Below the pieces are notes generated by a model. The model worked only from the letters and a program-made list of their open reading frames with translations, searched no databases and had not been told where the DNA came from. A program made the translations under genes and the position numbers. DNA of 24,500 bases, from positions 1 to 24,500 of IMG/VR virus record IMGVR_UViG_3300030389_001015; one strand, 5' to 3'. This DNA comes from a virus. Every line of letters begins with the position of its first letter. Positions within the stretch are counted from its first letter, which is position 1. Positions 2,977-20,343 of this stretch are shown here, piece by piece.

Positions 2977-3011
2977 ATAACTAATTTTCAACAATTTACA
3001 TATTGCTTATT

Positions 3012-3019
3012 TATTTTTG
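3012..3019 (+). promoter_or_regulatory. Host-type promoter -7 box before the sigma gene
   Basis: TATTTTTG matches the Bacteroidota -7 consensus TAnnTTTG exactly. It lies in a 55-nt gap (2977-3031), the first real gap in an otherwise overlapping gene string. No convincing -33 TTG is seen at the usual distance. The box ends 12 nt before the GTG start, so a transcript from here would have a very short leader. This is consistent with the host polymerase transcribing the sigma gene. Confidence 0.5.
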
Positions 3020-3031
3020 TAAACTTGGCTT

Positions 3032-3565
3032 GTGCAACTGACACAAAAAGAATATAATAAATTATTATCTATTGCAAGGAATATATGTAAAACAGATTTT
3101 GTAGAGGATTTGTTACATGAGGCATTGTTTGTATGCTTAAAGTACCCACCTGGAAAAATGGAGTTTATCAAAAAAGATGGTAAACTCTTTTTTTTTGTAG
3201 CACGTATAATGGCAAATATGTATCATAGTAAAACAAGTCAATACTATTATAGAATAGCTAGATTTTATGATATGCACACATTACAAGATTGCAACAAAAT
3301 GCAAAAATTTATATTTACTAATAACACTAAGCAACAAGACAAAATAGAGTTAATAGAAATGTTACTAGATGAGTTGTATTGGTATGATAGAGAATTATTT
3401 AAATTATATTATTTTGGTGAATTAGATGGCAATAAATATACATTATCATCATTAGCAAACAAAACTGGTATAAGTAGGCGTAGTATATTTACTACAATTA
3501 AAAATGTAAAAACATACATAAAAAAAAGATTAGATGAAATTAGAAGAGTTGATAAAATATACTAA
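3032..3565 (+). CDS. Phage-encoded sigma-70-family RNA polymerase sigma factor
   Basis: A 177-residue protein with two helical parts. Residues 8-78 resemble sigma region 2 (EDLLHEALFVCLKY, then FFFVARIMANMYHSK). Residues 107-170 resemble region 4, with ELYWYDRELFKLYYFGE followed by a helix-turn-helix (TLSSLANKTGISRRSIFTTI, 137-156). The start is GTG: an in-frame stop lies only 10 nt upstream and the first in-frame ATG (codon 43) would remove much of region 2. Similar small divergent sigma factors occur in Bacteroidota phages. It probably redirects host polymerase to later phage promoters (see TTTATATTTACT copies). It could instead be a region-4-like HTH regulator. It overlaps the next gene by 32 nt. 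Confidence 0.72.
   Translation: MQLTQKEYNKLLSIARNICKTDFVEDLLHEALFVCLKYPPGKMEFIKKDGKLFFFVARIMANMYHSKTSQYYYRIARFYDMHTLQDCNKMQKFIFTNNTKQQDKIELIEMLLDELYWYDRELFKLYYFGELDGNKYTLSSLANKTGISRRSIFTTIKNVKTYIKKRLDEIRRVDKIY
3308..3319 (+). promoter_or_regulatory. Candidate phage late promoter inside the sigma gene (copy a)
   Basis: The exact 12-mer TTTATATTTACT also stands in front of three structural operons. Here the identity with the copy at 7665 extends to 19 bases (3306-3324 and 7663-7681). A TTG at 3289-3291 lies 18 nt upstream of TATATTTA. It would transcribe 3534-7593 (small proteins, methyltransferase, SpeD-like and terminase genes). Because it lies in coding sequence, chance or peptide constraint cannot be excluded. 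Confidence 0.35.
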
Positions 3566-3761
3566 TTACAATGTACCTGCAATAGAGTTTTATAATGAGT
3601 ATGGTGATTTAGAGTATGTGGTAAATTTAAATGAATTTGAATTTGATGATATAGATGTAATATATGGTAGATGGTTTGAGCCATATGGTATAGTAAAATT
3701 GCAAAGAAAATATGAAAAAACCCGATTTGATGATAAAGGCATACAACCTACTGAAAGCTAG
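3534..3761 (+). CDS. Hypothetical small acidic protein, 75 residues
   Basis: I do not recognise a family. The 75-residue protein is rich in Tyr, Phe, Asp and Glu in its first two thirds (NVPAIEFYNEYGDLEYVV, then EFEFDDIDVIYGRWFEPYG) and has a basic C-terminus. It starts 32 nt inside the sigma gene and its own end overlaps the next gene by 50 nt, so it is packed between two better-supported genes. The compact acidic, aromatic make-up is typical of small phage accessory proteins, including DNA mimics and anti-host factors. That is speculation; no motif decides it. Confidence 0.5.
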   Translation: MKLEELIKYTNYNVPAIEFYNEYGDLEYVVNLNEFEFDDIDVIYGRWFEPYGIVKLQRKYEKTRFDDKGIQPTES

Positions 3762-3954
3762 TTATAAACGTGCAGTAGGTGGTTTTAAAGATGTAGATGA
3801 GGTTACATTTTATGATAGAGTACATACGTGTACCAGGTGTCCTAAATTTGATTATATAGAATATGAATGTACAATTTGTGGTTGTCCAATAGAAACTAAA
3901 GCTAAATGGAAAACTGAAAGTTGTCCTAAAAATAAATGGAATGAAATTAAATAA
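3712..3954 (+). CDS. Small zinc-ribbon-like protein
   Basis: An 80-residue protein with two Cys pairs: CTRC (Cys40, Cys43) and CTICGC (Cys53, Cys56, Cys58), plus a late CP (Cys71) before a Trp-ending tail. The order R..C..C - C..CGC.(I/L)..KA......CP...W is a pattern I know from small phage proteins of unknown function. It should bind zinc. It may act in transcription or nucleic-acid binding, but no specific function is known to me. It overlaps its neighbours by 50 and 14 nt. Confidence 0.65.
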   Translation: MKKPDLMIKAYNLLKASYKRAVGGFKDVDEVTFYDRVHTCTRCPKFDYIEYECTICGCPIETKAKWKTESCPKNKWNEIK

Positions 3955-4168
3955 AGATCATAAGCAAAAAGCAGAATATATATGGCAAGGTATAAAAACT
4001 GGTAAGGCAAAAAGTCATCACTATAAAGTAGAGATGATTAAGTTTTATAATGAGTTAAATAATACTAATTATAAATATACAACTAATTGTGGTAGTTGTT
4101 TAAATACTTGTTTTGAGTTTGTTAAATCAATAGTAATAAAACCTAAAAAGAAAAATGGAAAAAAGTAA
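3941..4168 (+). CDS. Small CxxC protein, 75 residues, function unknown
   Basis: A basic 75-residue protein with a helical N-terminus (DHKQKAEYIWQGIKTGK), a conserved-looking 'YNELNNTNYKYTTNCGSCL' region with Cys50, Cys53 and Cys57, and a Lys-rich tail. Small proteins with a CGSC element are common in Bacteroidota phages, usually annotated as hypothetical. It may bind metal or nucleic acid. It overlaps the zinc-ribbon gene and the DUF3310 gene by 14 nt each, so the three are probably expressed together. Confidence 0.55.
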   Translation: MKLNKDHKQKAEYIWQGIKTGKAKSHHYKVEMIKFYNELNNTNYKYTTNCGSCLNTCFEFVKSIVIKPKKKNGKK

Positions 4169-4427
4169 GTACTATTATGATTTTACAAGAAATATGCCTT
4201 GTGATGAAATGGTAGAAAATGAAAACAAAGTACCTGCATACTATGTAGGGCGTAATGGTATGATGGCTAAAGATGTTATTTATGAGTTTAATCTTTCATA
4301 TAATTTAGGAACTGCATGTAGTTACATTTTACGTGCAAAACGTAAACACAAAACACCTATAGATTGTATAAAAAAAGCAATAGCACATTTAGAGTTTGAA
4401 ATAAATAATTTAGAAAATGAAAGTTAA
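4155..4427 (+). CDS. DUF3310 (SaV-like) family protein
   Basis: The 90-residue protein contains the DUF3310 signature in residues 38-86: a hydrophobic helix followed by LSYNLGTACSYILRAKRK (48-65), then 'K-T-P-I-D-C-I-K-K-A-I-A-H-L-E-F-E-I'. DUF3310 proteins are widespread small phage proteins, sometimes described as nucleotide kinases, though the biochemical role is poorly settled. The length is typical. It overlaps the preceding gene by 14 nt and the following methyltransferase by 11 nt. The family is well supported; the role is not. Confidence 0.75.
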   Translation: MEKSKYYYDFTRNMPCDEMVENENKVPAYYVGRNGMMAKDVIYEFNLSYNLGTACSYILRAKRKHKTPIDCIKKAIAHLEFEINNLENES

Positions 4428-5679
4428 ATACGTAAAACCATATGAAGTAAAAGTAAATACTGATAACCCTAGAATTATAAAAGATACTAAGTTTGATAAA
4501 TTAATAAAAAGTGTTAAAGATTTACCACAAATGTTAAAAATGCGACCAATAATTGTAAATGATGATATGATTATATTAGGTGGTAATATGCGTTATCAAG
4601 CGTGTATAAAAGCAGGAATCAAACAAATACCAATAATACAATATACTAAAAAAGAACATTTAGATTTAAATACTGATAAAACATATGAAGAAACTTGTGA
4701 AGAAATTATCATAAAAGATAATGTAGGTTTTGGAGAATGGGATTGGGATATATTAGCAAATGAATGGAACTCTGTAGAATTAGATAATTGGGGTTTAGAT
4801 GTTTGGGTAAATGACGATGAGAAACCAAAGCATAACAAATTACAAGATAGTTTTGTTATTTCACCATTTACAATATTAGATAGTAGGCAAGGCTATTGGA
4901 AAGAAAGAAAGTCAGCGTGGCATGAACTGATAAAAGATAAAGGTGAAAGCAGACAAAATAAATTAACTGGAATTATGTCAGGCACTAATAATGGTGTCAG
5001 TTTGTTAGACCCTGTACTAGCTGAAATATGCAATAAGTGGTTTGGTTTAGAAAATTGCAATACTTTTGATTGTTTTGCAGGTGATAGTGTTTTTGGTTTT
5101 GTAAGTGATTATATGGGTAATAAATTTACTGGAATAGAACTTAGACAAGAGCAAACAGATTTAAATAACTCTAGGCTAAAAGGAAGCAAAAGCAAGTACA
5201 TATGTGATGATGGGCAAAATGTTTTAAAACACATTAAAGCAAATACGCAAGATTTATTATTTAGTTGCCCACCATATTTTGATTTAGAGGTTTATAGTGA
5301 ACTTAAAAATGATGCAAGTAATCAAAAAGAATATGCAGATTTTTTAAAAATATTAGATACAGCATTTAGTAATAGCATAAAATGTTTAAAGGATAACAGG
5401 TTTGCATTTATTGTAGTTGGTGATTTGAGAGATAAAAATGGTGCATATTATAACTTTCCAAATGATATAAAAAACATATTTATTAAAAACAACATGATTT
5501 TATATAACGAAATGGTATTAGTTGAGCCATTAGGCACATTACCACAAAGGGTTAGGCGTTATATGATAAATAGAAAGGTAGGCAAATGCCACCAAAACGT
5601 GTTGGTATTTTACAAAGGAGATACAAAAGAAATTAGCAATATATACAAAGAAATAAATTTAACAATAGATGAAAGCTAA
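4417..5679 (+). CDS. ParB-N-terminal domain / DNA methyltransferase fusion
   Basis: This 420-residue protein has two parts. Residues 1-75 form a ParB/Spo0J-like domain (LPQMLKMRPIIVNDD, then the GGNMRYQA motif at 55-62). Residues about 145-410 form an amino-methyltransferase: SPFTILDSRQGYWKERK (149-165), SAM-binding motif I FDCFAGDS (217-224), GIELR (239-243), catalytic motif IV SCPPYFDLE (283-291), and a C-terminal RKVGKCHQNVLVFYKGD segment. Motif I precedes IV. The residue before PPY is Cys rather than the usual Asp/Asn/Ser; I recall this variant from related phage ParB-methylases. It probably makes N6-methyladenine or N4-methylcytosine in phage DNA; which base is uncertain. It overlaps neighbours by 11 nt each. 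Confidence 0.85.
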   Translation: MKVKYVKPYEVKVNTDNPRIIKDTKFDKLIKSVKDLPQMLKMRPIIVNDDMIILGGNMRYQACIKAGIKQIPIIQYTKKEHLDLNTDKTYEETCEEIIIKDNVGFGEWDWDILANEWNSVELDNWGLDVWVNDDEKPKHNKLQDSFVISPFTILDSRQGYWKERKSAWHELIKDKGESRQNKLTGIMSGTNNGVSLLDPVLAEICNKWFGLENCNTFDCFAGDSVFGFVSDYMGNKFTGIELRQEQTDLNNSRLKGSKSKYICDDGQNVLKHIKANTQDLLFSCPPYFDLEVYSELKNDASNQKEYADFLKILDTAFSNSIKCLKDNRFAFIVVGDLRDKNGAYYNFPNDIKNIFIKNNMILYNEMVLVEPLGTLPQRVRRYMINRKVGKCHQNVLVFYKGDTKEISNIYKEINLTIDES

Positions 5680-5953
5680 GATGCACAACTATAGCGATTG
5701 GGTTAAAGAAACTAGCTCTAAAAAGCTTAAAAGCTATTATAACAGCGTATTAATAGAAAGTGGTTTTAAAATTTTAAATATTATAGATAAACATTTTGAG
5801 CCATATGGATATACTGCATTATTTTTATTAGCCGAAAGCCATTTTGCAATACACACATTTCCAGAACAAAAAACCACATATATTGAATTAAGCAGTTGTG
5901 TGCAAAAACCATATTATAAATTTTTAAATATAATAAGCAATGGACAAAAGTAG
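5669..5953 (+). CDS. speD: Minimal S-adenosylmethionine decarboxylase-like protein (SpeD family)
   Basis: A 94-residue protein whose core matches the pyruvoyl SpeD family: FEPYGYTALFLLAESHFAIH (43-62), then TFPEQKTTYIELSSC (63-77). Glu56-Ser57 is the expected self-cleavage site, Ser57 the pyruvoyl precursor. His62 and Cys77 fall at +5 and +20 from it, as do His68 and Cys83 relative to Ser63 in the Thermotoga enzyme, so the catalytic set is intact. It is shorter than usual (about 120-130). SpeD makes decarboxylated SAM for spermidine synthesis; some homologues act on ornithine or arginine. It overlaps the methyltransferase by 11 nt (or starts at ATG 5681) and the small terminase by 14 nt. No other polyamine gene is visible. 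Confidence 0.82.
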   Translation: MKAKMHNYSDWVKETSSKKLKSYYNSVLIESGFKILNIIDKHFEPYGYTALFLLAESHFAIHTFPEQKTTYIELSSCVQKPYYKFLNIISNGQK

Positions 5954-6290
5954 ACACATAAAAAAAGAAACAATAATAAAGGCTCTAGAAAGTAGTTTAG
6001 GTGTAGTAACAACTGCATGTAAAAAAACCGATATACCAAGAAGTACATTTTATAAATGGCTTAAAGAAGATGATGATTTTGCAAGTAAGGTAAAAGATAT
6101 AGAGAATGTTAGTTTAGATTTTGCAGAAAGCAAATTATTTGAGCAAATACAAGATAACAATACAAGTGCTACTATATTTTATTTAAAGACAAAAGGTAGA
6201 AAGCGTGGTTATTGGGAAAAACAACAACATGATATTACTACTGATGATGAGCCTATACAAATTAACATCAAATTAACTGATGAAGATTGA
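5940..6290 (+). CDS. terS: Terminase small subunit (TerS-like)
   Basis: A 116-residue protein starting with a helix-turn-helix (residues 8-46: KKETIIKALESSLGVVTTAC, then DIPRSTFYKWLKEDDDF), followed by a helical oligomerisation-like part (AESKLFEQIQDNNTSATIFY) and a 'LKTKGRKRGYWEKQQ' motif typical of phage small terminases. The C-terminus is acidic. The role is recognition of the packaging site on phage DNA and control of the large subunit. It overlaps the large terminase by 11 nt, the standard TerS-TerL pairing. Position and sequence agree. Confidence 0.85.
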   Translation: MDKSRHIKKETIIKALESSLGVVTTACKKTDIPRSTFYKWLKEDDDFASKVKDIENVSLDFAESKLFEQIQDNNTSATIFYLKTKGRKRGYWEKQQHDITTDDEPIQINIKLTDED

Positions 6291-7593
6291 AGCAGAGTTT
6301 ACACCAAAACAAAGCAAAGCAATAAAATATTTATTTGATAATGAAACAAGTGAGTTATTATTTGGTGGTGGTGCTGGTGGTGGTAAATCATATATTGGTT
6401 GTGCATGGATAATATATAGTTGTATTAAGTATAAAGGTATTAGGTGTTTAATTGGTCGTAGCAAACTTGATACACTTAAAAAAACTACATTAGCTACATT
6501 TTGGCAATGTTGTGCAGAGTGGGGTTTAAAAGCAAATAAAGATTATACATTTAATGGCTCTACTAACATAATAACATTTTACAATGGCTCAGAGGTTATT
6601 CTTAAAGATTTGTTCAGTTACCCTAGTGATCCTAATTTTGATAGTTTGGGTTCTTTGGAACTTACTCTTGCTTTTATTGATGAGTGTAACCAGGTTACGC
6701 AAAAAGCTAAAGCAATACTATCATCAAGGATAAGGTACAAATTAGATGAGTTAAATTTAATACCTAAATTGTTTATGAGTTGCAACCCTGCAAAAAACTG
6801 GGTGTATAATGAGTTTTACTTACCTAACAAAAAAGGTGTATTACCTAAGTATAGAAAGTTTATACAAGCACTAGCAAGTGATAATGTACATATATCTAAA
6901 CACTATAAAGAGCAACTATTAAAACTTGATGAGATAAGTAAACAAAGGTTACTATATGGTAACTGGGAATATGATGATAGTGAAGATAAGCTAATAGAAT
7001 ATGATGCTATTTTAAATATGTATGATGCAGATAATATAGCAAGTGGCAATAAATATATTAGTTGTGATGTAGCCAGGTTTGGCAAAGATAAAACTGTAAT
7101 AATATATTGGAATGGTTTAAGAGCTGAACGTATAAAAGTATTTGATACAAACACAATTACACAAGTAGCAGATGAAATAAAAGAAATACAAAGATTAGAA
7201 AATGTACCTTTAAAAAACATTATTGTTGATGATGATGGTGTTGGTGGTGGTTGTCGTGATATACTAAGGTGTTTAGGGTTTGTAAATAATAGTAAAGCAT
7301 TAAATAATGAAAACTATCAAAACCTTAAAACACAATGTTACTACAAATTAGCAGATTATATAAATACTGGTAAAATATATGTAAACACAAAAGATACTAC
7401 AATAAAAGAAAATCTAACAAAAGAACTAGAACAAGTAAGGCGTGATAAAATAGATAAAGATACAAAACTAGCTATAGTTAGTAAAGAAAAAATAAAACAG
7501 CAATTAGGAAGATCACCTGATTATAGTGATGCACTAATGATGCGTATGTATTATGAATTAAAAGCTAATGTTGGTAAATACTATATATATTAG
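6280..7593 (+). CDS. terL: Terminase large subunit (DNA-packaging ATPase and nuclease)
   Basis: A 437-residue protein with a full set of terminase motifs. Walker A is GGGAGGGKS (29-37), Walker B is LAFIDE (130-135), and the coupling motif is SCNP (167-170). The C-terminal RNase-H-fold nuclease shows acidic residues in SCDVARFGKD (Asp263), IIVDDDGVGGG (Asp317-319) and DYSDALMM (Asp414/Asp417). It powers packaging of phage DNA into proheads and cuts concatemers. Length is normal for the family. It overlaps TerS by 11 nt and is followed by a terminator-like hairpin, so it ends its operon. Confidence 0.96.
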   Translation: MKIEAEFTPKQSKAIKYLFDNETSELLFGGGAGGGKSYIGCAWIIYSCIKYKGIRCLIGRSKLDTLKKTTLATFWQCCAEWGLKANKDYTFNGSTNIITFYNGSEVILKDLFSYPSDPNFDSLGSLELTLAFIDECNQVTQKAKAILSSRIRYKLDELNLIPKLFMSCNPAKNWVYNEFYLPNKKGVLPKYRKFIQALASDNVHISKHYKEQLLKLDEISKQRLLYGNWEYDDSEDKLIEYDAILNMYDADNIASGNKYISCDVARFGKDKTVIIYWNGLRAERIKVFDTNTITQVADEIKEIQRLENVPLKNIIVDDDGVGGGCRDILRCLGFVNNSKALNNENYQNLKTQCYYKLADYINTGKIYVNTKDTTIKENLTKELEQVRRDKIDKDTKLAIVSKEKIKQQLGRSPDYSDALMMRMYYELKANVGKYYIY

Positions 7594-7594
7594 C

Positions 7595-7631
7595 AAGAGG
7601 GGTAACAAAAACAAATAAAAATACCCCTCTT
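7595..7631 (+). terminator. Terminator-like hairpin after the large terminase gene
   Basis: A perfect 10-bp inverted repeat AAGAGGGGTA (7595-7604) and TACCCCTCTT (7622-7631) encloses a 17-nt A-rich loop, starting one base after the TerL stop. There is no long T-run behind it, so it may be a weak terminator or an RNA-stability hairpin. It lies just before the promoter candidate at 7665. Confidence 0.65.
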
Positions 7632-7664
7632 AACTAATTCTAAAAACGCACCAAAAATAAACAA

Positions 7665-7676
7665 TTTATATTTACT
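7665..7676 (+). promoter_or_regulatory. Candidate phage late promoter (copy b), tail operon
   Basis: TTTATATTTACT sits in the 101-nt gap between the terminase and tail operons, after a hairpin and 18 nt before an ATG (7695). Its core TATATTTA resembles the host -7 box TAnnTTTG with the last G replaced by A. The following stretch, AATAAATAACTATA, is closely matched downstream of copy c, supporting a conserved element. Confidence 0.5.
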
Positions 7677-7694
7677 AATAAATAACTATACAAA

Positions 7695-8342
7695 ATGTTA
7701 TTAACACTAAACAATAAAGAATATACAATACCTAGCAAATGGTCGCAAGTAACTATAAGTAGTTACCAAAAATTTATGCTTAATTATGATGATAAGCAAG
7801 ATGACTATACAAAGACATTAAACACTATAAGTGCTTTTATAGGTGTGCCTTTTGCAGATTTAGAAAAATGTAAAAAATCAGATATAGATAAGGTAGATGA
7901 GGTTTTAGCAAAATTGTTACAAGATAAAACAAATGAAGAGTTAAACCTGGTTTTTATTATAAATGACAAAGAGTATGGCTTTCACCCTAATTTACAAGAA
8001 TTAACATTTGCAGAGTTTGTAGATTTAGATAATTATTTAAAAGAGCCTATAAAGAATTTACATTTAGTAATGGGTGTTTTATATAGAGAAATAGTAAAAA
8101 AGAAAAAAGATAAATACACAATAGTAGATTATGATAGTACACAATGTATTAAAAATGCAAAGCTATTTAAAGACAATTTAAGTGTATCTACTGTACAAGG
8201 TGCATCAACTTTTTTTTTGACTATAGGCAAGGAATTGCAGAAGAGTTTGCAATTATCTTCAAACAAACAACAAAACAAGATGAAGAAAATATACAAACAA
8301 AAGAAGAGCAATTTGGTAACAAGTGGGGTTGGTATAGTGTAA
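7695..8342 (+). CDS. Tail-assembly-chaperone-like protein, short (unshifted) form
   Basis: Zero-frame translation gives 215 residues. Residues 1-174 look like a real conserved protein: an N-terminal beta-hairpin (MLLTLNNKEYTIPSKWSQVT) and a helical body. After the nine-T run at 8210-8218 the frame becomes Lys/Gln/Ser-rich and looks like non-coding shadow (KELQKSLQLSSNKQQNKMKK). If the frameshift is programmed, this is the shorter, probably more abundant product, like lambda gpG. If the T-run is a sequencing or assembly error, this form does not exist. It is the first gene of the tail operon. Confidence 0.55.
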   Translation: MLLTLNNKEYTIPSKWSQVTISSYQKFMLNYDDKQDDYTKTLNTISAFIGVPFADLEKCKKSDIDKVDEVLAKLLQDKTNEELNLVFIINDKEYGFHPNLQELTFAEFVDLDNYLKEPIKNLHLVMGVLYREIVKKKKDKYTIVDYDSTQCIKNAKLFKDNLSVSTVQGASTFFLTIGKELQKSLQLSSNKQQNKMKKIYKQKKSNLVTSGVGIV

Positions 8343-8458
8343 TATATAATTTAAGTAATGGTGATATAACAAAAATTAATAACATACTAGAATTAAATGC
8401 AAAAGAAATATTTACTTTTTTGTGTTATTCTAAAGATTTAGATACTATTAAAAAATGA
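7695..8458 (+). CDS. Tail-assembly-chaperone-like protein, -1 frameshifted full form
   Basis: A -1 shift on the T-run joins residues 1-174 of the zero frame to an 80-codon extension (8216-8455, stop TGA 8456-8458), giving about 254 residues. The extension is convincing protein: DYRQGIAEEFAIIFK, EEQFGNKWGWYSVIYNLSNG and 'D-I-T-K-I-N-N-I-L-E-L-N-A-K-E-I-F-T-F-L-C-Y-S-K-D', a C-terminus I associate with phage tail chaperone-like proteins. Its TGA overlaps the next ATG in ATGA, like neighbouring genes, which strongly supports this frame as coding. Lambda-type gpG/gpGT chaperones use the same -1 mechanism. Here the tape measure gene is about 6 kb downstream rather than adjacent, so the chaperone role is inferred. 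Confidence 0.68.
8210..8254 (+). promoter_or_regulatory. Putative -1 frameshift site with downstream stem
   Basis: Nine T at 8210-8218 followed by G give the slippery heptamers T TTT TTT and T TTT TTG in the zero frame, both allowing re-pairing at -1. Fourteen bases downstream, AATTGCA (8233-8239) and TGCAATT (8248-8254) can pair as a 7-bp stem with an 8-nt loop, a possible stimulator. A length error in the homopolymer would mimic this. Confidence 0.55.
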
Positions 8459-8946
8459 GTTTTGGAGAGTTTAAAAATCAAGTAGGCATACAACAAAAAA
8501 ATGTTACATTAAGTAATATTATAAAGCTATATGAAGATATAGCAGATGCAAATGAATATATACAAGATGCTACATTTGGTGATATATTTGAAATAGATTT
8601 AAAAGAAACTAATTACGCATTATCACATTTAAGCATAGAAAGTGCAAGATTTACAAACCATGAATTATCATATAGTTTAAGTTTATATGTAATGGATTTA
8701 GTAAGTACAGATGAGGGTAATGAAAATGATGTACTTAGTGATACACTACAAGTAATAGGTGATTTTATTAGTCAATTTAAACATAGTACATCATTTGGTG
8801 ATATGGAAAATGACTTTAGATTTAGTGATGATGTAGCTTGTACACCATTTACAGAAAGGTTTGATAATGATGTAACTGGTTGGAGAGCAGATTTGGAGGT
8901 AGTAGTATCATTTAACGCAAGTGCGTGTACAACAGATACAATGTAA
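8455..8946 (+). CDS. Conserved phage tail/neck protein (tail-completion-like)
   Basis: A 163-residue protein with a helical N-terminus and beta-rich body. It contains a hydrophobic stretch around YSLSLYVMDLV (73-83), an acidic 'NDVLSDTLQVIGDFISQF' helix, and PFTERFDNDVTGW (131-143) leading to a beta-strand. I associate this arrangement with an uncharacterised virion gene of Bacteroidota phages, plausibly a tail terminator or completion protein. It overlaps the frameshifted chaperone frame by 4 nt and is followed by a 21-nt AT-rich gap. The structural role rests mostly on context. Confidence 0.6.
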   Translation: MSFGEFKNQVGIQQKNVTLSNIIKLYEDIADANEYIQDATFGDIFEIDLKETNYALSHLSIESARFTNHELSYSLSLYVMDLVSTDEGNENDVLSDTLQVIGDFISQFKHSTSFGDMENDFRFSDDVACTPFTERFDNDVTGWRADLEVVVSFNASACTTDTM

Positions 8947-8967
8947 ATAATATAATAAATAAATAAT

Positions 8968-9423
8968 ATGGCAACAACAGTAACAACGGCAACATTAAAG
9001 GTAGACATTACAGAAACAATAACTTTAAATGGCACTACTTATGATAAAACAACAACACAAAGTATAACTGGTATAGCACAATATACATCAAGAGTATATC
9101 AATTAAAAGCAAGTACAACACATACTGTAGTAGAATTTGCATCAGACCCTAGCAATAATGTATTTGATAGTGATGATTTTAAATATATGCGTATTACTAA
9201 CTTAGATGATACTAATGCAGTTAATTTAACATTTGCTACAGAAAGCAACGTAGGTTGTGCATTTCAATTAGATGCAGGTGAAAGTTTTGTAATAAGTGCA
9301 TTAACAGTTGATAGTAACACAAGTGGTGGTGCAATAACAACATTAGGGCATACAATATCTGATTTGTTCATTAGAACTGGTGCAAGTGAAACAGATGTAG
9401 AAATAGTAGTAGCAACAGCATAA
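8968..9423 (+). CDS. Beta-rich virion protein, function unknown
   Basis: A 151-residue protein dominated by Thr, Asn, Asp and short beta-strands, with no signal peptide or membrane segment. The middle (KYMRITNLDDTNAVNLTFAT, then FQLDAGESFVISALTV) resembles jelly-roll or Ig-like phage decoration proteins. The N-terminus is Thr-rich. It ends in TAATG, overlapping the next start by one base. Alternatives are a tail tube or head-decoration protein; its place in the tail module slightly favours a tail role. Confidence 0.55.
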   Translation: MATTVTTATLKVDITETITLNGTTYDKTTTQSITGIAQYTSRVYQLKASTTHTVVEFASDPSNNVFDSDDFKYMRITNLDDTNAVNLTFATESNVGCAFQLDAGESFVISALTVDSNTSGGAITTLGHTISDLFIRTGASETDVEIVVATA

Positions 9424-9953
9424 TGACAAAACTTAAATTAAAATCTACTGAACGTGTTTTTAAAATGTTTGCTGATAAGGTTATAAACCAGTCAATACGC
9501 AATTTAAAAAATCAAGATCACATAGATACTGGCAAACTAGCACAAGATTTAAGTTATGATTTAAAAGTACATAAAAGCCTATCACTTGAATTAAACTTTA
9601 AAATGCCTTTATATGCTATGTTTCAAGATAAGGGTGTAAAAGGTAGTCAAAGTGGTAGAAGAGCATATAAATCACCATATAAGTTTAAAGGAAAAAACAT
9701 AAAAGAAGATGTTATAGAGGCATGGATAAAACGTAAAGGCATACAAGGTAGAGATAAAAAAGGTAGGTTTATAAAACGTGAAAGTTTAGCATATTTAATA
9801 GGTAGAAAAATAGCACTATTTGGTTTACCTGCTACAAGGTTTTTTAGTAATGCTTTTAGACAACATTATAGAAAGTTACCAAAAAATGTTATACAAGCAT
9901 ATGCACAAGATGTAAGAAAGTTTATAAAAGAAACAACACAAGATATAAAATAA
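9423..9953 (+). CDS. HK97-gp10-like head-tail/tail component
   Basis: A basic 176-residue protein with the signature of HK97 gp10-like proteins: HIDTGKLAQDLSYDL (33-47), YAMFQDKGVKGSQSG (64-78), a helix with IEAWIKRKG (98-106), and SLAYLIGRKIALFGLPATRF (121-140) followed by F-x-x-A-F. These proteins sit in the neck or tail terminator region of siphoviruses and connect tail to head. The length is somewhat above the family's usual 120-150. It overlaps both neighbours by one base. Confidence 0.75.
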   Translation: MTKLKLKSTERVFKMFADKVINQSIRNLKNQDHIDTGKLAQDLSYDLKVHKSLSLELNFKMPLYAMFQDKGVKGSQSGRRAYKSPYKFKGKNIKEDVIEAWIKRKGIQGRDKKGRFIKRESLAYLIGRKIALFGLPATRFFSNAFRQHYRKLPKNVIQAYAQDVRKFIKETTQDIK

Positions 9954-13755: not shown

Positions 13756-14498
13756 TGGCTAAAAAAATATTCCAAATAAATAATAACTTAATAACTTTTG
13801 TAGGCACTAAAGGTGAAGAGGTAAATGGTAGTAGTGAAGATTGTAGGTTAGTAGGTGGTGTGTTTAATGGTACAAATTGTTTTATTGAAGATCATAAAGT
13901 TAACGAAAATTCTATAAATAATAGAAATATTGTAGGACAAAATAACACATTAAAAGAACAAGCATTAAACATATTTATAACTGGTAATAATAACCAAATA
14001 GATGAGGTAGATAGTACACACACTATAGGTGATTTAGCACACACAACAAGGTACAAAGAATTTAACCACGCAATAACAAGTAGTTTAGGAAGAACACAAA
14101 GAAGTGTTTTAATGTTTGAGGGGCGTACTACAGATGATACAGAAACAGAAATATTTATAGGTGGTGAAAGTAACAAAAGGTTTATAATAGATGAAACTAA
14201 AGAAAGTATAATAGCTTTAGAATGTTATATCTTAGCAAGGCGTATTGATAGTAGTGATGATGCTTGTATGGGTAAGTATCAACGTAATACATTTAGAGTA
14301 CACTCAGGCGTGTTAAGTAGAATAGGGCAAAATAATTTAACAAATCATAATCACGGCATTAATGGTTGGACAAATGATTTTACTGCAGTAAGTGATACAC
14401 CTGACTACATTAAAGTAACGTGTACTGGTGAATTAAGGGTAACTATTGACTGGAGTGTAATAGTTATGGTAAATGAATTAAAAACAAGTTTTATATAA
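13755..14498 (+). CDS. Tail fibre-like / receptor-contacting protein
   Basis: A 247-residue protein. After an N-terminal segment rich in Gly, Asn and Cys, residues about 55-85 have Asn-rich repeats (NIVGQNNTLKEQALNIFITG, then NNNQIDE) like the short beta-helix turns of phage fibres and tailspikes. The C-terminal 110 residues (TFRVHSGV, NHNHGINGW, then DYIKVTCTGELRVTIDWSV) resemble a trimeric fibre-tip or chaperone-like domain. The gene directly follows the baseplate protein by a 1-nt overlap, a common place for host-recognition proteins. It might alternatively be a baseplate-attached fibre adaptor. Confidence 0.6.
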   Translation: MAKKIFQINNNLITFVGTKGEEVNGSSEDCRLVGGVFNGTNCFIEDHKVNENSINNRNIVGQNNTLKEQALNIFITGNNNQIDEVDSTHTIGDLAHTTRYKEFNHAITSSLGRTQRSVLMFEGRTTDDTETEIFIGGESNKRFIIDETKESIIALECYILARRIDSSDDACMGKYQRNTFRVHSGVLSRIGQNNLTNHNHGINGWTNDFTAVSDTPDYIKVTCTGELRVTIDWSVIVMVNELKTSFI

Positions 14499-14651
14499 AT
14501 GAAAAATAATGAAAAATACCAACTATTAGGCACATACGTTTTGTCAGGTATGTTAGCATTTAAACAAATACTACCACATATAAGTAAAATAAAAGGAAAA
14601 AAACAACATAATAAAATATTAAAAGGCAAATGGCAAATAAAGAGCAAGTAA
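14499..14651 (+). CDS. Small basic protein, 50 residues
   Basis: The ATG at 14499 directly follows the fibre gene's stop, and the frame runs to TAA 14649-14651, overlapping the tape measure gene by 22 nt. The product has a mildly hydrophobic stretch (YQLLGTYVLSGMLAFKQIL) followed by a very basic tail (HISKIKGKKQHNKILKGKW). It might be membrane-associated or a small virion component. Tight packing into an otherwise empty 131-nt stretch supports it as a gene, but I recognise no family. Confidence 0.45.
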   Translation: MKNNEKYQLLGTYVLSGMLAFKQILPHISKIKGKKQHNKILKGKWQIKSK

Positions 14652-16438
14652 CATTAAGCCTTAAAATGTCAACACAAGAGGCAGAAAAAGGTTTAGAGAA
14701 AGTACAAAAAAATATAAAAGCAACAAACAAAGAGTTAAAAACAAATATTGATAATTTTGGTTTTTTAGGTGTTACTATAGGTGATGTAAAAGGCAAATTT
14801 GCAGACTTAAAAAAAATAGGTAGTCAAGCATTAACAGTTGTAAAACAACAAGGACAACAAGCCGCATTAGGTTTACGTATGATGTTCGGTGGCAAAATGA
14901 AAGCAGGTGCATCTGCATTATTTAAAACTATAAAAGTTGGTGTTGCATCTACTGGTATTGGTTTGTTAGTAGTAGCATTTGGCTCTTTATTGACTTTTTT
15001 TACAAAAACTAAAAGAGGTGCTGAATTATTAGAAACTGGTTTTAAAGCAATAGGGGCGGCTGTAGCAGTTATAACAGATAGAATAAGTAAAGTAGGTGAG
15101 GCAGTAACAAAAGTATTTAAAGGTGATTTTAAAGGTGCAATAGAAGATGTAAAAGGCTCAGTTAAAGGTTTAGGTGAAGAAATAGTGGAAGAAACTAAAC
15201 AAATGGTTGGGTTATCAAATGCCTCACAAAAATTAAGAGATAATCAAAGAGAATTAAACGTAGAAACTGCAAGGAGAAGAGCAGAACTTGAATCACTTAA
15301 ATTAATTGCAGAAGATACTACAAAAGATGAAGAAACTAGATTAAACGCCGCTCAAAAAGCATTAGATTTAGAAACTGATTTACTTGATAAAAGAGTAGCA
15401 AACGCGGAAGAAGCATTAAGGTTAAAAAAAGCAGAGGTTGATGCAAGTGAAAGTACTGCAGAGGATTTAGATGAGTTAGCACAATTAGAAATTGACTTAT
15501 TTAACATACAACAAGAAAGTACAACAAAACAGATAGAATTAAATAACAAGTTAAATAGCATACGTAAAGAGGGTGAGGCTAAACGTGAAGCAGAAGAGAA
15601 AGAAAGACAAGCACAAATAGATGAAGATAATAAAAAAAGAGAAGAAGAAGAAAAAATAGCAAATGACAAAAAAGTAGAAATGCTATCTAAAAGGTTACAA
15701 GCAGAGCAAGAGTTAGAATTAGCAAAAGCAACTAGTGATGAAGAAAGAGAATTATTAAAATTAGAACAAGATCAAGAAAAAGCATTAAAAGATGTAGAGG
15801 ATTTAGAAACTAGATTGGCAATAAAAGAAAAGTTTGAAATTGCAGAAACTGAGTTAAAAAATAAACATAATGAAAAACGTAAAGCAGATGATAAAGCAGT
15901 AGCAGATAGTAAAATGGCAGTAGGTTTACAAGCACTCAATGTAATGAGTGATATTGTAGGTAGAGAAAGTGCCGCTGGTAAAGCACTAGCAGTAGCACAA
16001 GCAACTATGAACACATACCAAGCCGCAACCAATGCTTTAGCTAATACACCTGCACCCCCACCTTTTCCACAAATAGCCGCCGCCCTAACAGTTGTAAGTG
16101 GTTTAATGCAAGTTAAAAAAATAGTAGCAACACCACCACCTAAAAAAATGGCTACTGGTGGTATGGTACGTGGTATTGGTACTGGTACAAGTGATAGTGT
16201 AGATGCAAGATTAAGTAAAGGTGAAAGTGTTATAAATGCAAAATCAACACGTATGTTTAGACCATTATTAAGTGCTTTAAATCAAGCTGGTGGTGGTAGA
16301 GGTTTTGCTAATGGTGGTATTGTAGGTGGTGATGCGGGTGGTATCACTACTGGTGTTGTAAAAGCATTTGTAGTAGCAGATGAAATGACAACTGAACAAG
16401 ATAGATTAAATAATATAAGAAGAAAAGCAACAATATAA
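14630..16438 (+). CDS. Tail tape measure protein
   Basis: A 602-residue protein. The N-terminus is helical, followed by a hydrophobic segment (about 102-125, IKVGVASTGIGLLVVAFGSL). A long charged coiled coil (about 200-430, rich in Glu/Lys/Ala) follows. Then comes an Ala-rich helix (AGKALAVAQATMNTYQAATN) and a Gly-rich C-terminus with MATGGMVRGIGTGTSDSV and ARLSKGESVINAK, the usual end of Bacteroidota-phage tape measure proteins. It sets tail length and is ejected with DNA. At roughly 0.15 nm per residue this predicts a tail of about 90 nm (inference). It overlaps the upstream 50-residue gene by 22 nt. Confidence 0.85.
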   Translation: MANKEQVTLSLKMSTQEAEKGLEKVQKNIKATNKELKTNIDNFGFLGVTIGDVKGKFADLKKIGSQALTVVKQQGQQAALGLRMMFGGKMKAGASALFKTIKVGVASTGIGLLVVAFGSLLTFFTKTKRGAELLETGFKAIGAAVAVITDRISKVGEAVTKVFKGDFKGAIEDVKGSVKGLGEEIVEETKQMVGLSNASQKLRDNQRELNVETARRRAELESLKLIAEDTTKDEETRLNAAQKALDLETDLLDKRVANAEEALRLKKAEVDASESTAEDLDELAQLEIDLFNIQQESTTKQIELNNKLNSIRKEGEAKREAEEKERQAQIDEDNKKREEEEKIANDKKVEMLSKRLQAEQELELAKATSDEERELLKLEQDQEKALKDVEDLETRLAIKEKFEIAETELKNKHNEKRKADDKAVADSKMAVGLQALNVMSDIVGRESAAGKALAVAQATMNTYQAATNALANTPAPPPFPQIAAALTVVSGLMQVKKIVATPPPKKMATGGMVRGIGTGTSDSVDARLSKGESVINAKSTRMFRPLLSALNQAGGGRGFANGGIVGGDAGGITTGVVKAFVVADEMTTEQDRLNNIRRKATI

Positions 16439-16442
16439 AATT

Positions 16443-17687
16443 ATGGAAAAAAAGACAACAAAAATAGTAGAGTTAGTTATAGATGATAACCATGAAGAAA
16501 TTACAATAGATGCTATAAGTTTAGTAACTGAACCTGCAATAGCAGAAAACTTTGTATATTTTAACAAACAAAAACATAACCTAACATTAGCAAAAGTAGA
16601 TGAAGAGCAAAAGTTACTTATATCACCTGCACTAATACCTAATAAGCATATATTTAGATTTGATGCAGAAACTAACCAGGAGTATTATGTATACTTTACA
16701 GAGGCAACTGTTAAGAAAGCATCAGAAATGTACTTAAAATACAACAATAACAATAATGCTACAGTACAACACGAAAACAAAATAACTGGTGTACATACTG
16801 TTGAGAGTTGGATTGTACAAAATCCTGAAATGGATAAATCTAAACTTTATGGTTATGATGTGCCTAAGGGTACGTGGTTTGTGTCTATGAAAATAGAAAA
16901 TGAAGAGATTATAGAGCGTATAAAAAATGGTGAATTACGTGGTTTATCAATAGAGGGTTATTTTACAGATAAAATGGCTAAAATGAGCAAGTTTGCAAGA
17001 GTTGGTAGCATGGTAACAGATGGCAAAGATGGTAAAATTGATTTACCATTATATGATAATGAAGATGAAGCACTTGCAAAAGCAAAAGAGTTAGGGTGTG
17101 AGGGTGTGCATTCTCATTCACTTGATGGAAAAGAAGTTTTTATGCCATGCTCAGACCATGATATCATTAGCAATTTATCAGAAATACTAAAAGAAGATTG
17201 TGAGTGTATGGATACTGAACTAATATCACCAAACCCTTGCACAAGTGGGTACGTACCATATGGACATAAAATAAAAGATGGTAAAAAAGTACCTAACTGT
17301 ATACCAGTTAATGCTAAAAAAAAGAAAAAAAAAAAGAAAAAAAAGCGTAGGTATTTAGAAAGTTATAATGATTACCCACAAAGTGCTAGTAATAATGCGT
17401 GTAAAGTTTTAAGGTGGATAGATGAACATGGTAGAGATGAAGTTAAAGGAATGACAAGGGTTGGTCTTGCAAGAGCAAACCAGTTGTGCAATAAAGAAAA
17501 TATAACAAGAGAAACTATATCACGCATGGCATCATTTAAAAGACATGAAAAAAATGCAGAAATTGACCCTAAATATAAAAGCACCCCCTGGAAAGACAAA
17601 GGATATGTAGCATGGCTAGGTTGGGGTGGTACAAGTGGAGTTAATTGGGCAATAAAAAAATTAAAACAAATAGATTCAAAAAAGTAA
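16443..17687 (+). CDS. XkdF-like prohead protease with extra C-terminal domain
   Basis: Residues 20-175 match the XkdF-type phage protease fold: AISLVTEPAIAENFVYF (24-40), QHENKITGVHTVESWIV (109-125), then WFVSMKIEN (145-153) and GELRGLSIEGYF (163-174). His110 and Ser169 are candidate catalytic residues. A small Cys/His module (GCEGVHSHSLDGKEVFMPC, 218-236) follows. After a ten-lysine tract (292-301), residues 306-408 form a separate domain (YNDYPQSASNNA, MASFKRHEKN, WGGTSGVNWAIKKLK) that I know from other Bacteroidota phage head proteins. It should process scaffold and capsid. Four bases separate it from the tape measure gene, and it sits before scaffold and capsid. The lysine tract is a possible slippage site. 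Confidence 0.75.
   Translation: MEKKTTKIVELVIDDNHEEITIDAISLVTEPAIAENFVYFNKQKHNLTLAKVDEEQKLLISPALIPNKHIFRFDAETNQEYYVYFTEATVKKASEMYLKYNNNNNATVQHENKITGVHTVESWIVQNPEMDKSKLYGYDVPKGTWFVSMKIENEEIIERIKNGELRGLSIEGYFTDKMAKMSKFARVGSMVTDGKDGKIDLPLYDNEDEALAKAKELGCEGVHSHSLDGKEVFMPCSDHDIISNLSEILKEDCECMDTELISPNPCTSGYVPYGHKIKDGKKVPNCIPVNAKKKKKKKKKKRRYLESYNDYPQSASNNACKVLRWIDEHGRDEVKGMTRVGLARANQLCNKENITRETISRMASFKRHEKNAEIDPKYKSTPWKDKGYVAWLGWGGTSGVNWAIKKLKQIDSKK
17315..17345 (+). other. A-rich slippery tract encoding ten lysines
   Basis: Runs of 8, 11 and 8 A broken by single G (about 17315-17345) contain several A AAA AAG heptamers in the reading frame, the classic bacterial -1 slippery motif. A -1 shift at the end gives GCG TAG (stop 17348-17350), truncating the protease at about 302 residues. 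A +1 shift also stops within a few codons. Confidence 0.4.
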
Positions 17688-17700
17688 CAAATAAAAGATA

Positions 17701-17712
17701 TTTATATTTACT
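17701..17712 (+). promoter_or_regulatory. Candidate phage late promoter (copy c), scaffold-capsid operon
   Basis: TTTATATTTACT lies in the 54-nt gap before the scaffold gene, 29 nt upstream of its ATG (17742). The downstream bases (ATAAATAACATAACTATA) closely resemble those after copy b at 7665. No terminator hairpin is seen in this gap, so read-through from the tail operon is also likely. Confidence 0.5.
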
Positions 17713-17741
17713 ATAAATAACATAACTATATTTTAATTAAA

Positions 17742-18389
17742 ATGGACTTAAAAACTAGAATCAGAGTTGCCTTAGGCATTGAGGAAGAAACTACTCAATT
17801 AGCATACGAGGGCAAATTAGCAGATGGTACTATAATTGTATCAGAGGCAGATGCTCTTGCTGAGGGTGTCGCAGTAAACGTACTTGTTGAAGATGGTACA
17901 CAAATACCATTACCAGTAGGTGAGTATGAAACAGAAGATGGCATGAAATTTATTGTAGAAGAAGAGGGTGTTATTGCATCTATGATGGAAGAGGCAGAAG
18001 AAGAAGATGAAGATGATATGAAAAAAGATGATGATGATAAAATTTATGAAGAAGACAAAGAAGAAATGTCAGATGATAATGCAGAACTATTTGCAGAAAT
18101 TGGTGCAGTAGTAAAAGAATTATTAGAAGAGGTTAAAAATGATTTAGCACGTATGAGTGCAGAGTTAGAAGAACTAAGATCAGAAAACCTTGCAAAAGAT
18201 GAAAACATAGCTGAACTACAAGAAGAAAATGTAGAATTAGCTAAACAAGTAAAAGATTTAGGTAATGAGCCAGGTGATGAGCCAGTTAAATTATCTAAAT
18301 TTAAAAAAGAGGCAGTTAAATTATCTAATGTAGAATATGATAAATTAACGCCACAACAAAAATATTTATATAACTTTAAAATTAAATAA
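17742..18389 (+). CDS. Capsid scaffold protein (probable)
   Basis: A very acidic 215-residue protein with no cysteine. Residues 20-75 are a small beta domain (GKLADGTIIVSEADALAEGV, then VGEYETEDGMKFIVEEEGVI) that I associate with Bacteroidota-phage genes just before the capsid. Residues 80-112 are an Asp/Glu/Lys-rich linker, and 113-175 are a predicted coiled coil (AEIGAVVKELLEEV, RMSAELEELRSENL, AELQEENVELAKQV). The basic C-terminus could bind capsid protein. It lies between the protease and, two bases on, the major capsid gene, the standard scaffold place. Confidence 0.75.
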   Translation: MDLKTRIRVALGIEEETTQLAYEGKLADGTIIVSEADALAEGVAVNVLVEDGTQIPLPVGEYETEDGMKFIVEEEGVIASMMEEAEEEDEDDMKKDDDDKIYEEDKEEMSDDNAELFAEIGAVVKELLEEVKNDLARMSAELEELRSENLAKDENIAELQEENVELAKQVKDLGNEPGDEPVKLSKFKKEAVKLSNVEYDKLTPQQKYLYNFKIK

Positions 18390-18391
18390 AA

Positions 18392-19255
18392 ATGGGTCTA
18401 ACGATTACTAGTTCATCCTATGCAGGTGAACATGCGGGGCTATATATTTCCCCTGCTTTAAAACAAGCAAAATCTCTTGAGTTTATAACTATGAGAGAAA
18501 ATGTAAATTACAAAGAGGTAGTAAACAAAGTAGTAGGTGCAGATTTAGTAAAAGATGGTACGTGTGCTTTTAATGAGCAAAGTGCATCACTTACGCTTAC
18601 AGAATCGGTTTTAGAAGTTGAGCAATTTCAAGTAAACCTTGATGTTTGTAAAAAAACGCTCTTGAGTGATTGGGCGTACGCACAACAAGATGATTTTGTT
18701 GCATATGCTACATCATATTTAGCTACAAGTATTGCAGATAGCGTAGAAAACTCTATTTGGCAAGGTAACACATCTACTAGTGGACAATTTAACAAAATTG
18801 CTACTGGCTCTATGACATCTTCAAGTGCGGGTGGTGCGTTTATATCAGGCTCTGGTACTGGTAACATAATTACTGAGTTAGGTACATTAGCATCTAATAT
18901 ACCAACGGCTGTCTATGGTACAGAAGATTTGTATATATACATGAATAAAAAGACATACAGATTGTATCTTTCGGCTATCTCAGCTTTAAGTGCTTTCCCT
19001 TTTAACCATATGGGGCAGTATACACCTGAGTTTGAAGGTATCAAGATTGCAGTTTGTCCAGGTATTGCAGACAACGTAATGTATGCAGGGCAAAAATCTA
19101 ACTTATTTTTCGGAACATCACTAAATTCTGATCTTACAGAAATCTCTGTTCTAGATATGAGTTCACTAGATGGGAGTCAAAATATTAGAATGGTTGCAAG
19201 ATGGACAGCAGGTGTTCAGGTAGGTGTTGCATCTGACTTTGTATACCACGCATAA
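18392..19255 (+). CDS. Major capsid protein
   Basis: A 287-residue protein with position, size and pattern of an HK97-fold capsid protein: helical N-terminal segment, central hydrophobic helix region (DDFVAYATSYLATSIADSVE), then YGTEDLYIYMNKKTYRLYL (about 185-203), EGIKIAVCPGIADNVMYAGQ and a C-terminal ARWTAGVQVGVASDFVYHA typical of capsid beta-strands. Codons are less AT-rich than in neighbours (GCG, GGC, CTT, TCT used more), as expected for a highly expressed gene. Its own hairpin follows the stop. It is 2 nt after the scaffold gene. Processing by the upstream protease is inferred. Confidence 0.85.
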   Translation: MGLTITSSSYAGEHAGLYISPALKQAKSLEFITMRENVNYKEVVNKVVGADLVKDGTCAFNEQSASLTLTESVLEVEQFQVNLDVCKKTLLSDWAYAQQDDFVAYATSYLATSIADSVENSIWQGNTSTSGQFNKIATGSMTSSSAGGAFISGSGTGNIITELGTLASNIPTAVYGTEDLYIYMNKKTYRLYLSAISALSAFPFNHMGQYTPEFEGIKIAVCPGIADNVMYAGQKSNLFFGTSLNSDLTEISVLDMSSLDGSQNIRMVARWTAGVQVGVASDFVYHA

Positions 19256-19271
19256 TTAATAACTAGCTAAC

Positions 19272-19297
19272 AGTAAGGGGCGTTAAAACCCCTTGCT
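19272..19297 (+). terminator. GC-rich hairpin after the major capsid gene
   Basis: AGTAAGGGG (19272-19280) pairs with CCCCTTGCT (19289-19297) including one T-G wobble, with an 8-nt loop CGTTAAAA. It begins 17 nt after the capsid stop. No T-run follows, so it may act as an attenuator or mRNA-stabilising end, keeping capsid expression above that of the next gene. Confidence 0.6.
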
Positions 19298-19322
19298 TAA
19301 AGCATCTAAAACATATAAAAAT

Positions 19323-19877
19323 ATGGCATGTGAACTAACCAAAGGCAGACAACTCGACTGCCGCGACGTGATGGGGGGTGTGAAAAACATCTACTTTGCA
19401 CAACATGAGGACGCTACTGTAACTACGGGTGCTACTGGTGAGGTAACTGATTTAGATATAACTACTAATTTATTTAAATACGCATTACCACGTGGTACTG
19501 CATCTTTTACAGAAACTGTACAACCATCTGTTGAAAATGGTACAGTATTTTTTGAGCCTAGTGTAAATATTATGTTACACAAAATGACTGTAGCAGATAG
19601 AAATGAGTTAAAATTATTAGCACAAAATAGATTATTAGTATTTGTAGAATTACAACAAGTACAAGGTAATGGACAAAACCAAATTTGGTGCTTAGGCAAA
19701 GAGAATGGCTTAGAACTATCAGCTGGTACTACTCAAAGTGGTGCGGCTTTTGGAGATATGGTAGGTTATAATTTAACATTTACAGGTGCAGAATCAGAGC
19801 CTTGTTTATTAGTGCAGTCATACACGACTACACCATTTGACAATGCAGGGTTTACAGTAACAGTAACTGCATCATAA
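19323..19877 (+). CDS. Probable major tail tube protein
   Basis: From ATG 19323 the protein has 184 residues and begins MACELTKGRQLDCRDVMGG, followed by VKNIYFAQHED. A longer frame opens at TTG 19293, but that codon lies inside the hairpin arm (19289-19297), so ATG 19323, preceded by an A-rich stretch, is preferred. The middle (FTETVQPSVENGTVFFEP, then KMTVADRNELKLLAQNRLLV) and end (FGDMVGYNLTFTGAESEPCL) match my memory of a Bacteroidota-phage virion family that I take to be the tail tube. It could alternatively be a capsid-associated protein, given its place directly after the capsid gene. Confidence 0.6.
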   Translation: MACELTKGRQLDCRDVMGGVKNIYFAQHEDATVTTGATGEVTDLDITTNLFKYALPRGTASFTETVQPSVENGTVFFEPSVNIMLHKMTVADRNELKLLAQNRLLVFVELQQVQGNGQNQIWCLGKENGLELSAGTTQSGAAFGDMVGYNLTFTGAESEPCLLVQSYTTTPFDNAGFTVTVTAS

Positions 19878-19903
19878 TATATAAAATTATATATAAAATC
19901 AAC

Positions 19904-19932
19904 AAAAGGTAGGGTAAAACCTACCTTTTTTT
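19904..19932 (+). terminator. Rho-independent terminator after the tail tube gene
   Basis: A perfect 10-bp stem AAAAGGTAGG (19904-19913) and CCTACCTTTT (19920-19929) with loop GTAAAA is followed by a T-run to 19932. This is the clearest intrinsic terminator in the window and ends the capsid/tail-tube transcript. Confidence 0.85.
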
Positions 19933-19959
19933 GTATATAAGCGTAATAAAATTAAGTTT

Positions 19960-19971
19960 TTTATATTTACT
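19960..19971 (+). promoter_or_regulatory. Candidate phage late promoter (copy d), operon starting at 19978
   Basis: TTTATATTTACT follows the terminator at 19904-19932 and ends 6 nt before the ATG at 19978. If its TATATTTA core is a -7 box, the transcript would start at or just before the ATG, giving a leaderless or nearly leaderless message. Its place right after a terminator is what supports promoter function. Confidence 0.5.
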
Positions 19972-19977
19972 TAAAAG

Positions 19978-20343
19978 ATGTTATACATAAAAAAGGCAGT
20001 AACTAACACAATTAAGGTAGCTTTAGCCGATAAGGTTAAAACTGCAGTAACACAATACAAGATCATTTTAACAAATGATATAAAAAATGTTAATCAAGAG
20101 TTAGTTATTACACCTACTTTTACAAAAAGATATGCACAATTTACAATAATTGAGCCAGGTGGTATAGCATTAACAGATGAGGGTAGTTACACATATGAAA
20201 TAACTGGTGATGGTGTAACACTAGCAAAAGGTAAGGCAATAGTATATGATGGTACGTTTACAACTGCTAGTAAATTTGGTGATGAGGTAACATATACTGA
20301 ACATGAAACAAGTGTAACAAACACACAATATATAACTATATAA
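19978..20343 (+). CDS. Small phage structural protein, 121 residues
   Basis: A beta-rich protein (KVALADKVKTAVTQYKIILT, then TKRYAQFTIIEPG, ending in DEVTYTEHETSVTNTQYITI). The 'Y-x-I-x-x-T-N-D ... R-Y-x-x-F-T-I-x-E ... G-x-Y-x-Y-E-I' pattern is one I associate with small virion proteins near the capsid in Bacteroidota phages; no function is assigned there to my knowledge. A decoration or neck role is possible. It is the first gene after a clear terminator and the promoter candidate at 19960. Four bases separate it from the next gene. Confidence 0.6.
   Translation: MLYIKKAVTNTIKVALADKVKTAVTQYKIILTNDIKNVNQELVITPTFTKRYAQFTIIEPGGIALTDEGSYTYEITGDGVTLAKGKAIVYDGTFTTASKFGDEVTYTEHETSVTNTQYITI

Follow-up and report, generated by a model that had tools for sequence, protein, structure and literature searches.

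Introduction

Phages that carry a sigma factor together with late promoters of their own are a known kind, represented by phiEco32 and by T4 with gp55. The lytic phages phiEco32 and 7-11 encode a sigma factor and leave their early genes to the host sigma (PMC4331800). T4 late promoters, read with gp55, have a -10 element only; they lack a conserved -35, and the gp45 sliding clamp serves as their activator (PMC2988020). In flavobacteria, the box of promoters read by sigmaA is TAnnTTTG (PMC9723704).

The DNA analyzed here is a stretch of 24,500 nt, referred to as the window, from a marine bacterial virus whose promoter layout recurs in dozens of relatives. An earlier note on this DNA had proposed that four copies of the 12-mer TTTATATTTACT form a late promoter set read by a sigma factor of the phage itself. 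It is very probable that the four sites, here called A to D, are phage-specific promoters that would be read by core polymerase together with a phage ECF-like sigma and would bring about a late switch.

Materials and Methods

Relatives were collected by terminase, capsid and sigma searches of IMG/VR, and 48 records were analyzed at full length, oriented and annotated with the genes of the window. Changes among 8 promoter classes, which were assigned by eye with the sequences already known, were counted by parsimony over 49 genomes on gene trees, each tree being based on the rows of that gene.

Results

An exact search of both strands of the whole window found TTTATATTTACT at 3308, 7665, 17701 and 19960, all on the + strand, just as had been claimed; the - strand contained no copy, a reversed-pattern control likewise gave 0, and no copy with one mismatch was present in the window. 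Markov models of order 1–4 predict 0.015–0.035 copies, in agreement with the earlier estimate of well under one chance copy. Order-3 simulations (n = 200) gave at most 1 copy each, and TTTATATTTACT is the sole 12-mer with at least four copies in the window. Three of the four copies lie in intergenic gaps ahead of structural operons, as the earlier note had said; such gaps make up 1.75% of the window (P ~2e-5). The copy at 3308 is not intergenic and falls within the sigma-like ORF 3032–3565. A scan of the window for sigma-70 consensus promoters gave no excess over shuffled sequences, and Rfam and tRNA scans of the window gave no matches.

All four copies are -10 halves of a bipartite element, G[CT]A[AC][CT]AAA-N11-TATATTTACT, of which the earlier note had missed the upstream half, as it had missed the meaning of the intragenic copy. 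The upstream boxes of the four sites, which are -35-like, all stand exactly 11 bases 5′ of TATATTTACT. Site A (3291–3319, + strand) consists of GCAACAAA at 3291–3298 and TATATTTACT at 3310–3319, lies within the linker of the sigma ORF and would feed the g3534...TerS-TerL packaging operon, whose last gene encodes the terminase large subunit (6280–7593, +). Site B (7648–7676, +), with GCACCAAA at 7648–7655 and TATATTTACT at 7667–7676, precedes the tail operon that begins with g7695 (7695–8342, +). Site C (17684–17712, +), with GTAACAAA at 17684–17691 overlapping the protease stop codon and TATATTTACT at 17703–17712, precedes the scaffold/capsid operon. The first gene of this operon is acidic and, from its position before the capsid gene, scaffold-like (17742–18389, +), and is followed by the gene for a major-capsid-like virion protein (18392–19255, +; phrog_1623). 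Site D (19943–19971, +), with GTAATAAA at 19943–19950 and TATATTTACT at 19962–19971, ends 6 bases 5′ of the ATG of gene 19978, ahead of the operon that includes the portal gene (21302–23128, +). A further ten-mer, at 3484 in the sigma gene, has no upstream box and was judged a coding coincidence.

Two of the copies had been said to follow hairpin terminators, and both hairpins are present. The one at 19904–19929 (+), which ends the capsid operon, has a T tail and is intrinsic-terminator-like; the one at 7595–7631 (+; AAGAGGGG...CCCCTCTT), after the terminase large subunit gene and just 5′ of site B, lacks a strong T run. Stems of differing sequence occupy the place of the latter in relatives. 

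The 48 relatives are syntenic with the window, and the sigma-like gene is found at the same place in all 49 records. The nearest cultured phages by terminase include Flavobacterium phage 11b (54%) and Cellulophaga phage phi10:1 (51%), and terminase relatives in genome collections are nearly all Bacteroidota, so a Bacteroidota host is likely. A C5-cytosine-methyltransferase-like gene at 1404–2600, named by eye, has matches among the 48 relatives in G005 and G006 and a weak one in G047, and is therefore regarded as variable cargo; a ParB-like and DNA methylase fusion at 4417–5679 in the packaging operon, also named by eye, is of far lower identity in some close relatives.

Relatives whose sigma is of the window's type (type I) have the window motif at the four corresponding positions: ahead of g7695, ahead of the scaffold/capsid operon, behind the gene that follows the capsid gene, and within the sigma gene. 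The upstream box stands at the exact 11-base spacing in 50/52 ten-mers of type I phages, and 15 of these phages (359 kb) contain the full element 49 times in forward and never in reverse orientation, compared with 0 in 34 phages with other -10 spellings (920 kb). A logo of 20 non-redundant sites from the 15 type I records has G at -19 in 90% and A at -14 in 100%. Where the sigma is of another type, the spelling at those places differs: in type II phages they carry TATATTTTATA, type III phages have CTATTATATA (52 forward, 6 reverse), and smaller groups spell the -10 box as TATATTATATA, TATATATTATA, CCCTTTATATATTAT or TATATAC. Types II, III, IIIb and IV share the positions with other spellings, nearly all on the coding strand. 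Across the 49 genomes there are ~8 -10 spellings, with one spelling common to all sites of a phage, and similarity between sites drops to background once sigma divergence exceeds ~0.5. The promoter role given to the sites by the earlier note is thus well supported by their conservation at the same places in 48 related records, and sites A to D are predicted to be phage-specific promoters of the packaging and structural operons.

Functionless shared ancestry or chance has a negligible probability. Close relatives do have flanks in common by descent, but the four non-homologous places agree within a genome and change together between lineages, and synonymous codons are invariant at site A. The spelling classes might instead mark different hosts, the sites being real promoters read by an alternative (ECF) sigma of the host. 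Flavobacteria have several ECF sigmas and a promoter class with a CGT box (PMC9723704), comparable with the CGTTA of the cultured phage P12024S. This is nevertheless improbable, given that a phage gene for an ECF-like sigma is at the same place in 49/49 records and that the spellings cluster perfectly on the phage sigma tree.

It is more improbable still that the motifs are translation-initiation or other DNA signals (for packaging or replication) that coincide with operon starts. In types II and III and in P12024S the box ends a few bases before the ATG, whereas the distance to the ATG is ~18–29 bases at sites B and C of type I, site A precedes no conserved start codon, and the fixed spacing is to the upstream box and not to the ATG. 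The start of the capsid gene itself, which is inside its operon, has no such box. A translation signal was rejected on the variable distance from motif to ATG and the lack of a motif before the capsid gene. At many sites (19960–19978 in the window; type II and III sites in relatives) the -10 box ends 0–6 bases before an ATG, so these late mRNAs may have little or no leader.

Host-type promoters have a different form. TTG-N18-21-TATATTTG, which matches the flavobacterial sigmaA box, is found in early-region gaps of many relatives (for example, in oriented coordinates, G006:24909, G007:1091, G013:5670, G018:6239 and G023:23046). Bacteroidota sigmaA promoters have TAnnTTTG with a TTG ~19 bases 5′ (-33/-7); the late boxes resemble TAnnTTTG without its final G, as the earlier note had observed, and the late sites have no TTG. 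That note had also described a host-like TATTTTTG before the sigma gene, which is present at 3012–3019 but is conserved in the closest relatives only. In many phages of types I and II, the stretch corresponding to 2977–3031 instead contains TATAATG or TAnnnTTG, separated by a few bases from the start of the sigma gene; this is a third promoter-like spelling. No late box precedes the sigma gene.

The sites could also be real promoters that the host sigmaA holoenzyme, possibly helped by a phage activator, reads as a TAnnTTTG variant, the sigma-like protein serving other genes. TATATTTA is one base off TATATTTG, the host-type box of the early gaps, and the spelling follows the portal and protease trees as closely as it follows the sigma tree. 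Other classes, however, spell the box TATATTTTATA, CTATTATATA or CGTTAATATA, none of which is near TAnnTTTG; a different box 11 bases 5′ stands in place of a TTG at -33; and no further repeated motif was noticed at operon starts that the sigma could read. Recognition by host sigmaA is thus unlikely, though less so than the other alternatives.

Site A corresponds to codons 87–96 of the sigma gene, within the disordered linker (residues 78–98, pLDDT <50 in the AlphaFold model). In 20 type I sigma genes its codons TTT ATA TTT ACT AAT do not vary, giving five consecutive single-codon columns, when a single codon is used in 13/75 conserved degenerate columns. Several type II sigma genes have TTTATATTTTATA in the same linker in another frame, which encodes DLYFI where type I encodes FIFTN, and G028 has an identical TTTATATATTATA in its sigma gene and in its g7695 promoter. 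The invariant codons, together with the differently spelled copy in another frame in distant relatives, argue that the intragenic fourth copy is a genuine element. The copy is degenerate (TATATTTTATT) in the recombinants G014 and G016, and the sigma genes of G022 and G023 have no intragenic match. Type III phages are without the intragenic copy, but a site precedes their ParB-methylase gene or lies at another point between sigma and terminase; with the intragenic copy of types I and II, the packaging operon thus usually has such a site. Production of a shorter sigma from an ATG within the gene, 3′ of site A, was rejected because Met110 is not conserved in relatives.

The sigma-like ORF (3032–3565, +; GTG start) encodes 177 aa, with an N-terminal region-2-like and a C-terminal region-4-like helical domain joined by the disordered linker. 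Matches to sigma family profiles are weak: Sigma70_r4 matched 28/47 members, Sigma70_r2 6 and phrog_1740 (RNAP sigma factor) 22, and the window protein scores 15.3 bits against Sigma70_r4, below the Pfam gathering cut-off of 24.1. A search of PDB sequences with the sigma profile gave none up to E = 1, and no close relative was found among annotated phage records. The AlphaFold model has a pTM of 0.45, with low confidence in the linker (78–98). All of its structural matches among the PDB entries listed are to sigma factors or to domains of them. Among the best are E. coli sigmaE and M. tuberculosis sigmaL, which span both domains of the model (Z 8.2); Foldseek E-values exceed 0.1. From these weak but consistent matches, the ORF is predicted to fold like a two-domain ECF sigma. 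The ECF layout is present, with regions 2 and 4 only, a linker and a length under the limit of ~200 aa; no match reaches a curated Pfam cut-off, and the protein is therefore called ECF-like and not an ECF member.

On the sigma tree the promoter classes, as assigned by eye, need 7 changes, as few as 8 classes allow, against 12 on the capsid tree, 10 on that of NinG, 9 on those of TerL and g7695 and 8 on that of scaffold. The portal and protease trees also need 7 and fit the classes as well as sigma does. Type I as a single clade is rejected by the capsid tree (p-AU 1.65e-100) and is not significantly rejected by TerL (p-AU 0.28) or NinG (0.13). The capsid gene (18392–19255) has thus been exchanged across promoter classes, whereas sites C and D on either side of it kept the class of a sigma gene ~15 kb off. 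Three records, G014, G015 and G016 (L359–L361, L356), combine a window-like terminase (80%–82% identity) with a distant sigma and with promoters of class II or II′, which points to recombination between the sigma and terminase regions. In Mantel tests on longest-common-substring similarity, sigma distance explained the similarity between sites, but no better than TerL, portal or scaffold distance, so the distance-matrix test cannot name sigma as the reader.

The phage sigma is the predicted reader of the late sites. The dependence on sigma claimed by the earlier note is supported indirectly, in that spelling follows sigma type; with the portal and protease trees fitting equally, the distance test unspecific and the classes assigned by eye, it is graded as well supported and not as proven. 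The features expected of a phage sigma system are a sigma-70-family gene, indicated at family level by the Sigma70_r4, Sigma70_r2, phrog and structural matches (each weak alone), a repeated non-host motif at structural operon starts, and conservation of this motif in relatives with the same sigma; all three were found. We infer that transcription starts at the element, that the phage sigma reads it and that it acts late.

Discussion

In the proposed mechanism, the four copies would be the -10 halves of promoters of the form G[CT]A[AC][CT]AAA-N11-TATATTTACTA, from which site A would start packaging, site B tail, site C scaffold/capsid and site D the 19978–portal operon. Host core RNA polymerase carrying the phage ECF-like sigma would read these sites, the TATATTTACT box through sigma region 2 and the AACAAA-like one through region 4. 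Early genes would start from host sigmaA-type promoters, and the phage sigma, once made, would turn on the late operons, one of them driven from a promoter within the linker of the sigma's own gene.

The chances are about even that the family presents a natural set of sigma-promoter pairs that have diverged and may be orthogonal, which stay matched despite capsid swaps and include one promoter inside the sigma linker. If so, at least 8 -10 spellings change genome-wide together with sigma, and the site A promoter is carried along whenever the sigma gene moves. Such a set of matched natural variants would make the recognition rules readable and testable. The proposed promoters, of host type for early and of sigma type for late genes, together with the terminators also give a map of regulation for a widespread uncultured phage group whose closest terminase relatives infect Bacteroidota. 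Neither this promoter family nor the promoter inside its sigma gene was found described in the literature searched, which included few subscription papers.

The cultured Nonlabens phage P12024S (JQ823122, L447) has the same layout and makes testing practical. Its ORF at 20595–21074 matches Sigma70_r2 (25.2 bits; Pfam cut-off 24) and is placed between the VRR-NUC (junction) nuclease gene and the terminase genes. Five of its structural-region genes are immediately preceded by AACAAA-N11/12-TTTYCGTTAATA-like sites (5 in forward and 0 in reverse orientation, with 0.08 expected); these AACAAA-N-CGTTAATA sites are at 3000, 5381, 23931, 25170 and 26771. The likeness to the window thus extends to the place of a sigma-70 region 2 ORF and to an AACAAA-like box with repeated -10 boxes; the -10 box, in contrast, is spelled CGTTAATA, the portal is 28% identical to that of the window, and the sigma is weakly related to the window sigma (hhalign probability 41%). 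No report of the P12024S sigma gene with its repeated AACAAA-N-CGTTAATA box was found in the literature searched, which included few subscription papers. A sigma-profile search of the ORFs of Flavobacterium phage 11b, phi10:1 (part) and P12024S gave no match; it missed even the annotated P12024S sigma, so the absence of a sigma from phage 11b is weak evidence.

phiEco32 and 7-11 resemble the window in having few, well-conserved phage promoters before structural genes and a layout common to related phages; they differ in their enterobacterial hosts and in the motif (PMC4331800). phiEco32 encodes an anti-sigma factor, whereas none was identified in the window, and its promoters are experimentally established, whereas those of the window are predicted from sequence. 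For phiEco32 and 7-11, no promoter inside the sigma gene, where the window has site A, was noted in the passages of PMC4331800 compared. The T4 gp55 system likewise uses host core polymerase with a phage sigma and an AT-rich -10 box for late genes; unlike T4 promoters, which have no second box (PMC2988020), the window sites have one at fixed spacing. The -10-only form of T4 thus does not apply, with the upstream box at 50/52 ten-mers, and the fixed spacing suggests that region 4 reads DNA. Flavobacterial ECF promoters (SM6, CGT box; PMC9723704) are alternative-sigma promoters of the likely host group, and the P12024S -10 box contains CGTTA; they belong, however, to host genes and host sigmas, and the window -10 box has no CGT. 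The window family is set apart from the known kind by its host group, its motif, its intragenic promoter and the breadth of its matched spellings.
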